Source: an uncultured Lachnospiraceae bacterium
GTDB taxonomy: Bacteria; Bacillota; Clostridia; Lachnospirales; Lachnospiraceae
Direction: 5' to 3'
DNA length: 64,000 bases
Assembly: GCA_902788035.1 (NCBI GenBank)
Contig: CADAIL010000005.1
Coordinates: 1 to 64,000, forward strand
Shown: piece after piece, positions 11,665 through 52,559 of the stretch
How positions within the stretch are numbered: position 1 is the stretch's first letter
How the letters are laid out: the number at the start of each line of letters is the position of its first letter
Program-made: the position numbers and the translations under genes
Notes under the pieces: model-generated
Told to the model about the DNA's origin: nothing
Databases searched by the model: none
What the model saw: the letters and a program-made list of their open reading frames with translations, nothing else

Positions 11665-11869
11665 GCAACAGTGCAGACGGAATGCTCTTTCAGTTCAGTT
11701 GTCGGCCGCAAAACATTCATCTTCGTGAGAAAAACATTGTAGGTTCGACCGAGAGATCAGAAGATGCGAATGCATCTTCTAAGCTCGCAGAGGAGAACCT
11801 GCGTTTTTCGATGAAGATGATGTTTGCGGCGGCTTTTGATATTTTGCTGCATTCCGTCTGAACTGTTCC
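11665..11869. mobile_element. MITE-like palindromic element, copy 1
   Basis: About 205 bp that fold almost completely on themselves. The ends are AACAGTGCAGACGGAATGC and GCATTCCGTCTGAACTGTT. Inner arms GCCGCAAAACATTCATCTTC and GATGAAGATGATGTTTGCGG pair next, around a centre AGAAGATGCGAATGCATCTT. The inner motif ACCGAGAGATC is at 11748-11758. It carries no gene. It lies between the nrdR terminator and the pyrH promoter. Related copies are at 21685-21891, 39477-39677 and 52381-52559. No clear target duplication is left here. Confidence 0.8.
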
Positions 11870-21684: not shown

Positions 21685-21891
21685 GTCACACCGTTCCCAG
21701 CTTTTAATCTGGCTGCCCGGAGATCAAGAACCGTCGCAAACATCATCTTCATCGAAAAGCGTAAGTCCTTTCCTCCGAGCTTAAAACGCTCACGCGTTTT
21801 GATCTCTCGGTCGGACTTACAATGCTTTTCTCACGAAGAAGGATGTTTTGCTCCGGAACCAAAGCTCAAGAACGCCCGTCTGAACTGTTAC
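21685..21891. mobile_element. MITE-like palindromic element, copy 3, ending in the lgt stop codon
   Basis: The right end, read on the minus strand, starts GTAACAGTTCAGACGGGCG and matches the termini of copies 1 and 2. The inner arms CATCATCTTCATCGAAAAGC and TGCTTTTCTCACGAAGAAGG pair, and the inner motif GATCTCTCGGT (21801-21811) is the complement of ACCGAGAGATC. The left end is degenerate, so 21685 is approximate. The TAA of the terminal GTAAC is the lgt stop codon. No target duplication is recognisable. Confidence 0.72.
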
Positions 21892-35678: not shown

Positions 35679-37886
35679 TTATACATTAATATCGAATTCT
35701 ATACGTATTTCTTCAAATCCGCTGTTTATGCGGATATATTCCTCGATCATATGTCTGGCGCGAATCAGATTTTCGATCTCCTTGTGCCGCAGATAAATGA
35801 CCTGCCGGAAGCGGTCCCTGATCTTGCCGACAGTCTGCGGCGCAGGTCCGATTGCAGCCAGAGCCCCCCTCTTGTCTATGATGTCTATATACTTTCTTAT
35901 ATAGCCCATTCCCACCGTCAGAAGTTCCTCGCTCGCAGCGCTTCCGAGAATTGCCAGAAGACCGCCGACCGGCGGATACCTCATGATCTTTCTGTAGGCT
36001 ATCTCCTCCCGATAAAACGGTCCGTAAGACTGAGCAGCAGCATACCGCAGGGTCGAGTTTTCCGGTTGATATGTCTGAATCACCGCTGTTCCGGGTTTTG
36101 TCCCACGGCCGGCTCTGCCGACTGCCTGAGTGATCAGCTGATATGTTCTCTCCTGGGATCTGTAATCCGATTCGTTGAGCGATAAATCCGCCATCAGTAC
36201 CCCGACCAGAGTGACATTCGGAAAATCGTGGCCTTTTACGATCATCTGCGTGCCGACGAGAACATCTGCGTCCCCACGCCCGAATTCCCTGAGGATCCTT
36301 CCGTGGCCTTCCTTTCCCCGCGTGCTGTCAAAGTCCATGCGAAGAGTACGAATCCCCGCAAATTCTTTCCGCAGAGCTTCCTCGACCTGCTGGGTCCCGA
36401 CGGAAATTCCTCCTATGTGCCGCGACTTGCATTCCGGACACTCCATGTATTCCGGAATCTCATATCCGCAGTAATGACAGATAAGCTTACCGTTTGCGTG
36501 CCTGGTGAGCGAGACATCACAGTGAGGACATTTAGCCACGAATCCGCAGGATCTGCATGTCACAAAACCTGCATACCCCCGCCTGTTCAGGAACAGCATG
36601 GCCTGTTCTCCCCGGTCTAAACATGCCCGAAGTCGACCGGACAGCTCTTCAGAGAACATGGACCGGTTTCCTTTAGCCGCCTCCTCCCTCATATCGACAA
36701 TCAGAGTCTTTGGCAGCATCGCACTGCCGTACCTCTGCGTGAGAGATTCCCCGGCATACCGTCCCTCCCACACGCGGTAGGCAGATGTGATCGATGGCGT
36801 CGCCGATCCGAGGAGCAGATGAGCCCCTTCGATCTCCGCCCTCTTTTCCGCAGTCTCCCTTGCATGGTACCTGGGTGTCATCTCGGATCTGTATGTCTCC
36901 TCGTGCTCCTCATCGATAATGATGAGTCCGAGCTTTGTGAACGGGGTGAATAGAGCCGACCTTGGGCCGACCATGATGGAAACGTCGCCGCGCTTCGCGG
37001 CCTTCATCTGATCATACCTCTCGCCCTCGGACAGCCTGGAATGGAGAAAGGACACCTTCTCTCCGAACCGCTTCACGAACCGGGTGACGGTCTGCCTTGT
37101 CAGAGCGATCTCCGGAATCAGCATGATCACCTGTTTTCCTTCAGCGAGCGTATCCGCAATGAGTTCCATGTAGACCAGCGTCTTTCCGCTGCCGGTAATC
37201 CCCTTGAGGAGTACCGGCCGGTTCTTTGTTGACCACTCTGTGCGGATTTTTCTGACCGCCATGCTCTGTTCACCTGTCAATACATCCGGAGGCAGAGCTT
37301 CCGCCTCCTCGATGACCTTTCGATAGTTCTCCTGGGTCATAACACAGATGATGCCGTCTTTTTCGAGACCGCGGATGATCTCAATGCTTACATTCTGCTC
37401 TTTCATGAGATCTGCAACAAGCCGGTCGTCATGTTCGAGCAGGGAATCAATAACTCTTGCCCTGCCCTGCTGCCGTTTTCCCAGACGGCCTTTATAGTAA
37501 ATCGCCATATTCCGGTCAGTTATGGTGGCTCTTCGGATCGTGAGCGGATTCACTTTTTTCCCGAGAGGCAGAACAGTGCGAAGAGACTGCGCCATGACTC
37601 CGCCGTAGGTCCGGCACATCCACCCGGCAAGGGCAATCAGCCTTGCCTCCACAGTCTCCTCGTCTGTGAGGACCGCCGCGATGTCCTTTATCTTGTCCGG
37701 GTCATAGTCGCAGCTGTCCTTCAATCTGATCACATATCCCCGTACCATCCGCGGGCCGAACGGTATGGTGACCAGACTGCCGACACCGACAGAGTCCCTC
37801 AGGACATCCGGTATATGATAGCTGAACGGTCTGTCCAGAGCCTGTACGGAAATATCGACGATAATATCAGCGTAAAGCTCGTTCAT
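35679..37886 (-). CDS. priA: Primosomal replication restart helicase PriA
   Basis: A 735-residue 3'-5' superfamily 2 helicase that reloads the replisome at collapsed forks. It has the N-terminal fork-binding domain, Walker A GITGSGKT, DEEHEETYR (DEAH-like box), two zinc sites from CRSCGFVAKCPHC and CHYCGYEIPEYMECPECK, and helicase C-terminal motifs such as QAVGRAGRG. The start at 37886 overlaps murE by 20 nt and has AAAGGA inside the end of murE, so the two genes are coupled. Confidence 0.96.
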   Translation of the reverse strand: MNELYADIIVDISVQALDRPFSYHIPDVLRDSVGVGSLVTIPFGPRMVRGYVIRLKDSCDYDPDKIKDIAAVLTDEETVEARLIALAGWMCRTYGGVMAQSLRTVLPLGKKVNPLTIRRATITDRNMAIYYKGRLGKRQQGRARVIDSLLEHDDRLVADLMKEQNVSIEIIRGLEKDGIICVMTQENYRKVIEEAEALPPDVLTGEQSMAVRKIRTEWSTKNRPVLLKGITGSGKTLVYMELIADTLAEGKQVIMLIPEIALTRQTVTRFVKRFGEKVSFLHSRLSEGERYDQMKAAKRGDVSIMVGPRSALFTPFTKLGLIIIDEEHEETYRSEMTPRYHARETAEKRAEIEGAHLLLGSATPSITSAYRVWEGRYAGESLTQRYGSAMLPKTLIVDMREEAAKGNRSMFSEELSGRLRACLDRGEQAMLFLNRRGYAGFVTCRSCGFVAKCPHCDVSLTRHANGKLICHYCGYEIPEYMECPECKSRHIGGISVGTQQVEEALRKEFAGIRTLRMDFDSTRGKEGHGRILREFGRGDADVLVGTQMIVKGHDFPNVTLVGVLMADLSLNESDYRSQERTYQLITQAVGRAGRGTKPGTAVIQTYQPENSTLRYAAAQSYGPFYREEIAYRKIMRYPPVGGLLAILGSAASEELLTVGMGYIRKYIDIIDKRGALAAIGPAPQTVGKIRDRFRQVIYLRHKEIENLIRARHMIEEYIRINSGFEEIRIEFDINV

Positions 37887-39357
37887 CAAGGATTTCCTTT
37901 ATCAGTACTCTCTCATCCATCGGATATTTGACACCGCGTATCTCCTGGTAATCCTCATGGCCCTTGCCCGCAAGGACAATAATATCCCCCGGCTGTCCAT
38001 GATCGATCGCGTATGCGATCGCCTCCTTCCGATTGATGATCGTAATGTATTTTCCGTCTGTCCTCTTAATTCCGGTCACGATGTCCGCGATAATGTCTTC
38101 CGGCTCCTCGAATCTCGGATTGTCCGATGTAATGATAGTGAAATCCGCCATTCTTCCGGATACTTCTCCCATTTCGAACCTGCGGTCCTTTGACCTGTTC
38201 CCCCCGCAGCCGAACAGACAGACGATGCGGTTCGGGTGATAATCGCGCAGCGTAGAAAGGAGGCTCTCAAGCGCCATCGCATTGTGGGCGTAATCGATCA
38301 TGAGTGTGAACTCGTCCGAAACTTTGATCATCTCGATTCTTCCCTTGACAAAGGCAGCCTTCAAGGCTTTTTTAACAGCCGATACAGGAATGTCAAAATG
38401 TCTGCATATGGAGATTGCCGTCAATGCGTTGTAGATTGAGAAGAGTCCGGGGATATCGAGTTCGACAGGGAAAGATGCCTTTCCGACAACGTCGAAAGTG
38501 ACGCCGAGGTAGCCCGGTCTGTGAATATGCTCAATATTCACGGCACGGATATCCGCATCCGGGGTCGTAATCCCGTAAGTTTCCACCGGACAGATGCACC
38601 CGGCGAGAATTTCCTTCGTGTGGGCGTCATCTGCATTTGCAACAGCTATCCGGCACTGCTTAAAGAGCCGGCTCTTCATCTCAAGGTACTCGGCGAAATC
38701 TTTGTGCTCTCCCTCCCCTATATGATCCGGAGAAAGGTTCGTAAATACACCGATCTCAAACATAATTCCGGCAGTCCGGTGCATCATCAGGGCCTGGGAG
38801 GATACCTCCATGACTGCGCAGGTGCAGCCCGCTTCGACCATCTCATGCAGATATTTCTGAACAAGCGTCGACTCCGGAGTCGTATTCTTCGACGGCACAT
38901 GCGTCTTTCCGATAATCGTCTCGATCGTGCCTATGAGGCCGACTTTATAGCCCGCATTCTCGAGGATCGAGCGAACCATGTAAGTGGTCGTTGTCTTTCC
39001 CTTAGTGCCGGTGATTCCTATGACCGGTATCTTCTCTGCCGGGTACTCATACCAGGCTGCCGCTATGAGCGCCATGGCATACCTCGTGTCAGGGACACTC
39101 ACGACCGTGCAGGTATCCGGAATCTCCGCGATTTTTTCATCGGACAGTCTGCCGTCTTCTACGACGACTGCCACGGCGCCATCGCGCGCAGCACTTGCCG
39201 CGCAGGTATGGCCGTCGAACTTTGCGCCGACGATACAGATGAACATGCATCCCGGCGTCACCTCATTTGAATTATTGACCAGCTTCTCTATCTCCCGTTC
39301 CGCGCTTCCTTTTAGGATGCGGTACTCTGACCTTTCAAGCAGGCAGGCAAGATTCAT
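37867..39357 (-). CDS. murE: UDP-MurNAc-tripeptide synthetase, meso-DAP type
   Basis: A 496-residue ATP-dependent ligase that adds the third residue of the peptidoglycan stem peptide. It has the Mur-ligase P-loop GITGTKGKTTT, the NLSPDHIGEG motif and the substrate-specificity motif DNPR (in ITSDNPRFEEPEDI), which in the family marks meso-diaminopimelate rather than lysine. ATG 39357 is chosen, with GGGGG about 12 nt upstream; 39390 is an alternative. Unlike in many relatives it is not in the dcw cluster but heads the priA operon. Confidence 0.95.
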   Translation of the reverse strand: MNLACLLERSEYRILKGSAEREIEKLVNNSNEVTPGCMFICIVGAKFDGHTCAASAARDGAVAVVVEDGRLSDEKIAEIPDTCTVVSVPDTRYAMALIAAAWYEYPAEKIPVIGITGTKGKTTTTYMVRSILENAGYKVGLIGTIETIIGKTHVPSKNTTPESTLVQKYLHEMVEAGCTCAVMEVSSQALMMHRTAGIMFEIGVFTNLSPDHIGEGEHKDFAEYLEMKSRLFKQCRIAVANADDAHTKEILAGCICPVETYGITTPDADIRAVNIEHIHRPGYLGVTFDVVGKASFPVELDIPGLFSIYNALTAISICRHFDIPVSAVKKALKAAFVKGRIEMIKVSDEFTLMIDYAHNAMALESLLSTLRDYHPNRIVCLFGCGGNRSKDRRFEMGEVSGRMADFTIITSDNPRFEEPEDIIADIVTGIKRTDGKYITIINRKEAIAYAIDHGQPGDIIVLAGKGHEDYQEIRGVKYPMDERVLIKEILDERALR

Positions 39358-39408
39358 ACTATTTTTAACCCCCTTCTGTCTCATAGACACAGATATCCAT
39401 ATTGGACT

Positions 39409-39437
39409 ATCATACCCTATTTGTGCTGTAAAAGCAA
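39409..39437 (-). promoter_or_regulatory. Possible murE operon promoter
   Basis: On the minus strand TATGAT (39409-39414) has TTGCTT (39432-39437) 17 nt upstream, a weak -35. It lies between the MITE-like element and murE. Confidence 0.4.
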
Positions 39438-39476
39438 ATACAGCGTGTAAAAGTACCGCATGGGACCGCTCTGCCC

Positions 39477-39677
39477 GTAACGGTTCAGACAGGCTGTAAG
39501 TCAGTTCCTGAATCCGGCGCAGACATCATCTTCATCGAAAAACGCAGGTCCTATCTGTGAGCTAAAAAAGCTAAAGCTTTTTGATCTCACAGTGAAGGAC
39601 CTGCAATGTTTTTCTCACGAAGATGGATGCTCTGCTGCCGGAAACGAAATGATGATACAGCCTGTCTGAACTGTTAC
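39477..39677. mobile_element. MITE-like element, copy 2, with TIRs and 8-bp target duplication
   Basis: A 201-bp element. The 22-bp terminal inverted repeats differ at one base, start GTAAC and continue GTTCAGACAGGC (39477-39498 and 39656-39677). CTCTGCCC sits directly outside both ends (39469-39476 and 39678-39685), a perfect 8-bp duplication. The inner arms CATCATCTTCATCGAAAAAC and TGTTTTTCTCACGAAGATGG pair. There is no coding sequence. GTAA ends plus 8-bp duplications are known hallmarks of the IS66 family, so I infer cross-mobilisation by such a transposase. Confidence 0.88.
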
Positions 39678-39760
39678 CTCTGCCCAATAAGTACGTCCGA
39701 CACCGTATACTTCAGACCACTTATTGACCGGGGCGGCACCATGCAGCACCTAAGCTTACA

Positions 39761-40606
39761 TTATGCGAATACCGTTGTAACGGCGAAGTACAGAAGGACA
39801 ATGATTCCGAGAACTATGCGGTAAACACCGAAGACCTTGAAGTCATGTGTCCTGATATACTTAAGGAGGAACTTGATTGCGAAGATCGATACGAAGAAGG
39901 CCACGACCATGCCTGTTGCCAGCAGAACGAGCTCATATCCCGTGAAGAGAAGCCCGAACTTTAAGAGCTTCAGAAGACTTGCGCCGAGCATGACCGGAAC
40001 TGCAAGGAAGAATGTGTACTCTGACGCGGTCTTTCTGGACATTCCGAGTATAATTCCGCCGAGGATGGTTGCTCCGGATCTCGATGTTCCGGGGATCAGC
40101 GCCAGCACCTGGAAAAGACCGATCATGAGAGCCGTCGACCAGTCGATTTGAGCAATCGATCGAATGAGCGGCTTCGTCTTTTTGTTCCTGTTCTCAATAA
40201 CGATAAATAATACACCGTAGACGATAAGCATGATCGCGACGGTAGGATAATTGTAGAAATGCTCGTCAAGCCAGTCATCGAACGGGAAACCGATCACAAT
40301 AGCCGGGATACAGGAGACCAGTATCTTAAGCCACATAATGAATTTTTCCCGGTCGAGGATCTTATAAACTCCCTTCTCCTTATCGTCCGGTCTGTGGAAA
40401 GGCCACAGCCTGCTCCAGTACAGAAAGACAACAGCCAGAATAGCTCCGAGCTGTATGACGACCAGGAACATATTCCAGTAATCTTCCGATACCGAGAGCT
40501 TTAAAAACTGCTCGACCAGTATCATATGTCCCGTTGAGCTGATCGGAAGCCATTCGGTTATACCTTCTACAATTCCAAGAATGACTACTTTAATAAAATC
40601 CAGCAT
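39761..40606 (-). CDS. uppP: Undecaprenyl-diphosphatase
   Basis: A 281-residue polytopic membrane phosphatase that converts undecaprenyl diphosphate to the monophosphate, recycling the carrier for peptidoglycan and the window's polysaccharide cluster; overproduction gives bacitracin resistance in the family. The two signatures, [18 protein letters not shown] with the catalytic Glu pair and [13 protein letters not shown] with the essential Arg, are intact. AGAGGAG precedes the start. It has a structured leader (40607-40705) and stands as a single gene. Confidence 0.96.
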
Positions 40607-40705
40607 ATACTCCTCTTTTTGGGCTTTTCACCGGAACTATCCGTTCCGGCTCCTTAGGAGCTGTGTTTGCCCAGTGCAAAATATGCCACGCAGCTCCGTT
40701 ATTAC
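40607..40705 (-). promoter_or_regulatory. Structured 5' leader of uppP
   Basis: On the minus strand GGAGCTG(CG)TGGC pairs with GCAAACACAGCTCC around TTTTGCACTGGGCAAA, which itself can form TTTGC/GCAAA pairs. A second hairpin, CCGGAACGGATAGTTCCGG, follows 7 nt later. The gene's Shine-Dalgarno lies 18 nt beyond. No known riboswitch consensus fits. The remaining stretch up to the tRNA terminator (40706-40805) shows no convincing feature. Confidence 0.45.
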
Positions 40706-52380: not shown

Positions 52381-52559
52381 GGCAAGCTGCTCTCACAGTT
52401 CGCTGACGGTGCAAAGCATCCATCTTCGTGAGAAACAAAAGCTGGTCCGACCGAGAGATCGGAAAATGCGGAGCATTTTGCAAGCTCGCAGGGAAGGACC
52501 TGCGTTTTTCGGCGAAGATGATGTTTGCGCCGTTTCATGAAATCCTGAGGCAGCCTGCC
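52381..52559. mobile_element. MITE-like palindromic element, copy 4
   Basis: Outer arms GGCAAGCTGC and GCAGCCTGCC, and inner arms CATCCATCTTCGTGAG and GGCGAAGATGATG, pair to give a long hairpin. ACCGAGAGATC (52450-52460) matches copy 1. CACAGTTCGCTGACGG at the left is a diverged form of the family terminus. It begins 5 nt after the stop codon of the glycosyltransferase gene at 52565. Target duplications are not visible. Confidence 0.75.

Follow-up and report, generated by a model that had tools for sequence, protein, structure and literature searches.

Within the 64,000-nucleotide stretch of uncultured Lachnospiraceae DNA that was analysed here (the window), a 201-bp segment at 39477-39677 on the plus strand raises the question of whether it arrived by transposition, what moved it and what has happened to it since. 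Its neighbours on either side are minus-strand ORFs taken to be murE (37867-39390) and uppP (39761-40606), labels which come from the ORF translations without a family search. It is bounded by a left terminal inverted repeat (TIR), GTAACGGTTCAGACAGGCTGTA (39477-39498, plus strand), and a right TIR, TACAGCCTGTCTGAACTGTTAC (39656-39677, minus strand; GTAACAGTTCAGACAGGCTGTA when read inward), each of 22 nt and together 95% complementary with one mismatch. Directly outside lies a target site duplication, CTCTGCCC, at 39469-39476 and 39678-39685, matching at 8/8 positions. An earlier note had described the 201-bp element, its 22-bp TIRs and its perfect 8-bp duplication, and this description proved exact. 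The ends begin GTAACGG and GTAACAG (outer pattern GTAAC[AG]GTTCAG), and the TIR pattern, allowing up to 3 mismatches, occurs at 2 sites in the window and at 0 in 100 shuffles. As a whole, the element folds as a single hairpin from end to end (DNA -67.9 kcal/mol, z -15.4, equalled by 0/200 shuffles), a feature beyond the earlier description, and its conserved, structured core at 39513-39645 (plus strand) scores 130.9 bits with covariance model R1. The ORF listing shows none of 80 aa or more inside the 201 bp, which marks the element as non-coding, and no DDE_Tnp_IS66 transposase gene lies within it; it is not itself a full IS66 element.

A direct answer to the first part of the question has been obtained from a congener, the Lachnospiraceae MAG RGIG5770 from sheep ileum (G018). 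Its flanks are 84% identical to window positions 38700-39477 and 89% identical to 39678-40697, with 9 bases of G018 common to both matches; there, one CTCTGCCC is present and the element is absent. This precise empty site (C18:16175-16182), of the kind that the earlier note had proposed to look for in a relative, proves the insertion of the 201-bp element between murE and uppP. A young copy entered this gap after the split from G018, duplicating 8 bp, and the insertion of a miniature inverted-repeat transposable element (MITE) with ISBst12/IS66-type ends is thereby directly documented. Together with the dispersed copies described below, the short length (below about 500 bp), the lack of a transposase, the TIRs, the constant 8-bp duplication and the empty site confirm the segment as a bacterial MITE, as had been claimed.

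The element belongs to a large family. Its own genome is a 2.96-Mb draft, 97.6% complete, and the genomes compared with it are draft MAGs. The search for further copies, also proposed earlier, gave at least 40 by blastn. The TIR, at 3 mismatches or fewer, matched at 108 places (reversed control 0) and the conserved inner arm, CATCTTCGTGAGAAAAACATTG, at about 155 (0 for the control), a number not anticipated in the earlier note; at 200 bp per copy, the family makes up about 1% of the genome. The conserved arm occurs at 122 sites in G018 and 75 in a further congener, G003. A TIR with at most one mismatch is found in only 3 of 41 genus genomes, and the exact TIR in 2 of 397 family genomes. Among 75 paired copies in fetched DNA of the own genome, zero-offset duplications match at 8/8 positions in five and at 7/8 in six, against 0.06 and 0.11 expected from mismatched pairs (0.17 in total against 11 seen), and 8/8 duplications also flank copies in L068 and L091. 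No duplication is recognisable in the majority of old copies, for which the case for transposition therefore comes from family resemblance. Most copies are of about 201 bp. Shorter ones measure 64-65 bp, and among these the copies at C22:86481 and in L091 have 8/8 duplications; longer ones measure 295-297 bp or 333 bp (8/8 duplication at C22:81757). The copy at C39:18654 is nested in the arm of another copy and has its own 8/8 duplication, ATGAAGAT.

According to a simple codon-usage gene caller, none of the 75 paired copies lies mainly within a predicted gene; 49 are located between co-directional genes, 10 between convergent and 10 between divergent genes, and 6 at edges, with 22 in the same and 20 in the opposite orientation relative to co-directional flanking genes. 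Of the roughly 155 related copies in the genome, nearly all are intergenic. Three further cores in the window, which the earlier note did not include, are likewise intergenic, and these older copies have decayed ends: the second at 11698-11833 (minus strand, 149.3 bits), inverted with respect to its G018 ortholog, the third at 21730-21861 (plus strand, 134.3 bits) and the fourth at 52401-52534 (minus strand, 116.1 bits). The gap between murE and uppP also contains a long imperfect hairpin (39453-39749), possibly a uppP terminator, the stem of which is split by the MITE insertion. Hairpins have been considered as a preferred target of the MITE and rejected, as 12 duplication-bearing sites have a mean z of -0.77 against -0.39 for random sites (sd 1.26), which is little difference.

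The fate of the copies after insertion was followed in own-genome copies for which the flanks identified an orthologous locus in G018 or G003; at 26 of these loci the element is present on both sides. Across the 22 same-orientation pairs, the hairpin arms are on average 97.0% identical; the corresponding means are 85.4% for the inner stem, 84.6% for the TIR zone and 85.2% for the flanks. The arms exceed the flanks in 21 of the 22 (Wilcoxon p 4e-5), and the TIRs show no difference from the flanks (p 0.97). Since the flanks are partly coding, which should raise their identity, the comparison of arms with flanks is conservative. Several pairs combine arms of at least 93% identity with an apical stem that has been replaced whole, both sides together (C19:18182 vs L076, C22 vs L294, C41 vs L275). 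The core is inverted in place in 4 of the 26 pairs, with 78-89% identity in the inverted register, and two of these four are nearly identical across the core. Copies of the MITE so exchange modules and flip their cores. The ends and the duplication decay as fast as the DNA around them and the inner arms remain nearly unchanged, with apical stems being replaced as paired modules and cores inverting in situ. Recombination between inverted repeats and gene conversion from copy to copy would account for the flips and swaps, and the arms may be kept either by conversion toward the family consensus or by selection acting on the fold of the core, as RNA or as cruciform DNA. Taken together, the element is very probably a member of a non-autonomous, palindromic MITE family of ISBst12/IS66 type, the copies of which swap and flip hairpin modules and the core of which is under post-insertion constraint or conversion.

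A consensus fold drawn from the alignment of 44 cores comprises 33 pairs, and 96.7% of the cells are paired; changes affecting both partners were counted in 123 cells, compared with 31 after shuffling and 4-13 in slid controls. Counted on a tree, double changes number 84 against 1-3 for slid partners, not all of them independent mutations given the module swaps between copies, and exchange together with flips explains many of them without stepwise compensation. The stems that vary are GC-NNN-TCC/GGA-NNN-GC and the apical one, and the arms CATCTTCATCGAAAAAC and GTTTTTCTCACGAAGATG are nearly invariant in the 44 copies, internal-loop bases included. The covariance model of the core has matches in 9 of 42 genus genomes, in some of which the core is set in unrelated flanks. 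A longer form of the core, 191 nt with a conserved tip, occurs in G035, G033 and G005, where it sometimes lies in tandem arrays and lacks MITE-like ends.

These observations lend some support to another reading, in which the core is a domesticated host element, a structured RNA or a protein-binding cruciform, that has merely been spread by MITE transposition. The 97% identity of orthologous arms, set against about 85% for both TIRs and flanks, the invariant internal loops, the strong covariation and the presence of the core in 9 of 42 genus genomes, sometimes amid unrelated flanks, would all be in keeping with such a role. Against it stand the lack of any preference in orientation or gene arrangement, the flips of the core in place and the lack of an Rfam family, neither element nor core having a match at gathering score. 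The wobble pairs (A.C 39 and G.U 12 in the core, G.U 27 and A.C 8 in the TIR stem) point to opposite preferred strands for core and TIR stem, and gene conversion among 155 copies could equally keep the arms alike. A domesticated core is possible on these grounds, though the balance is against it. The related proposal that the MITE carries a module useful to its host, with the core selected after insertion independently of the ends, at more than 100 intergenic sites per genome and with swaps of paired stems and inversion, is regarded as doubtful. Under the favoured reading of a non-autonomous MITE family, the element is ordinary in kind; a core that outlives its ends is unusual. Two things that are usually lumped together, the neutrally decaying ends and the non-decaying core, have now been separated, and, with orthologs of these copies present in three or more species, a direct test becomes possible between selection and gene conversion as the process keeping bacterial MITE hairpins.

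As to the driver, the earlier note had pointed to the IS66 family. The congener G027, in which no copies of the MITE were found, holds a 1967-bp element in four full copies, of which three have perfect 8-bp duplications (CGCTCAAA, GAATTTTT and AATACACC, each 8/8). The element encodes a protein of 483 aa in which DDE_Tnp_IS66 (119 bits) and DUF6444 domains are recognised, as well as a 126-aa ORF, and has GTAACTGTTCAGAACCCC at both ends, matching at 18/18 positions; the end segment compared with the MITE end is GTAACTGTTCAG. At other IS66 loci in the bacterial family the ends read GTAACAGTTCAGCC, GTAACTATTCAGAACC or GTTACTGTTCAGG, and several independent IS66 elements in genus and family have the ends GTAAC.GTTCAG or close variants. 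ISDge4, an ISBst12-group member of the IS66 family, carries GTAACTGCTCAGCA ends and an 8-bp repeat (PMC12898284), and the MITE, like ISDge4 and the G027 element, has ends of the pattern GTAAC.G(C/T)TCAG and 8-bp duplications. Classical IS66, with TnpA, TnpB and TnpC, shares the GTAA start and the 8-bp duplication, although its inverted repeats start GTAAGCG (PMC11946415) and the MITE differs from the fifth base on and has no tnpA, tnpB or tnpC. Because the IS66 ends of G027, of the family and of ISDge4 match and classical IS66 starts GTAAGCG, the MITE ends are placed, by this likeness, with the ISBst12 group. The suggested IS66 link thus holds at the level of the family, given the G027 element, the ISDge4 ends and the 8-bp duplications, the subgroup being ISBst12-like (GTAAC.GTTCAG) rather than classical IS66.

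As to a full IS66 element with the same ends, a check also suggested earlier, the outer 11-12 bases are common to the MITE and the known IS66 ends, that of the G027 element among them, and the ACAGGCTG that follows these bases occurs in no autonomous element found. In contrast to elements of the ISBst12 group, the MITE has no transposase, and in its hairpin interior no relation to the IS is visible. An autonomous element carrying the whole 20-bp end, GTAACAGTTCAGACAGGCTG, was not found in the genomes searched, and neither PF03050 searches of seven other genomes holding the exact end nor the 397 family genomes and ten viral contigs yielded an autonomous partner. By eye, no inward-facing TIR pairs 1-4 kb apart are present among the own-genome sites listed. 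The transposase that the earlier note had thought a possible driver elsewhere in the genome was likewise not found, PF03050 having no match in the own genome (97.6% complete draft); for that reason, the driver is one that we infer. An IS66-type (ISBst12) enzyme probably moved the MITE, recognising GTAAC.GTTCAGACAGGCTG ends in trans, and the MITE would have moved as DNA, leaving an 8-bp staggered duplication. The enzyme would now be absent from the own genome or unsampled there, the partner gene having been lost, missed by the assembly or located outside the genome.

A different transposase family producing 8-bp duplications, with the GTAAC.GTTCAG likeness to IS66 being convergent, is unlikely to have driven this MITE. 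In the genomes that hold many copies, G018 among them, no IS66 transposase was found, and a weak PF03050 match in G003 was rejected as an IS66 driver, as it reads by eye as an IS256-type ORF. The IS256 family also makes duplications of 8-9 bp. However, no matching ends lie near the G003 ORF, and independent IS66 elements in the genus and family, as well as ISDge4 with its 8-bp repeat, have such ends (PMC12898284). That the repeat is not mobile at all, having spread by recombination or slippage with duplications arising by chance, is scarcely credible: many copies without duplications and tandem clusters such as the C5:112800 region are in its favour, but it is already contradicted by the precise empty site with one CTCTGCCC, by duplications of 7-8/8 in 11 copies where 0.17 would be expected and by the nested C39:18654 insertion with its own 8/8 duplication. 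At one tandem cluster, G000:C5 around 113000-113700, the copy number differs from that at the orthologous G018 site (L274), suggesting that recombination has gained or lost copies.

Several other bacterial repeats are comparable to this family. The ERIC, Correia, REP/BIME and Nezha repeats are short, palindromic and intergenic, and several are presumed to have been moved in trans. To our knowledge they differ from the present family in sequence, ends and hosts, the direct comparison being the Rfam search, which was empty. Nezha is mentioned among bacterial repeats together with BOX, RUP and SPRITE of Streptococcus pneumoniae, which are likewise high-copy, MITE-like and rich in secondary structure, with the TIRs of BOX and RUP pairing within the fold (PMC3049150). 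No sequence relation to BOX, RUP or SPRITE was found; what distinguishes the present family is a documented target duplication, empty site and set of IS66-type ends, together with core modules that are exchanged and inverted. A 2024 review of prokaryotic MITEs makes no mention of IS66 (PMC10969869), and in the part of the literature covered no earlier description of this high-copy family was found. A MITE family with ISBst12/IS66-type ends is thus added to those described.

Additional observations concern the surroundings and variants of the core. An insert of about 90 bp in the apical stem, itself a hairpin, is nearly identical in L057:1263-1489, L097:6602-6828 and L231:792-1018 (CAAGGTGCCTGATTCGTGC...GAAACGCGAGATG) and may be a second element that has inserted into the tip. 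The long 191-nt hairpin lies near a tmRNA gene (Rfam RF00023 match) in L216 and L223, from G033 and G005. Tandem arrays with units of 15-39 bp adjoin cores at L022:1267-1514, L028:1120-1491, L223:249-434 and L214:804-889; the units resemble repeated pieces of the arms, and several of their lengths are not multiples of three. Finally, the same 20-bp end is present in other Lachnospiraceae on different short elements (L087:3256-3388, L093:7198-7261, L096:1037-1065 and L089:3168-3196), which share the sub-terminal palindrome GTAACAGTTCAGACAGGCTGNCCTGTTAC and of which that in L087 has a duplication matching at 7/8 positions.
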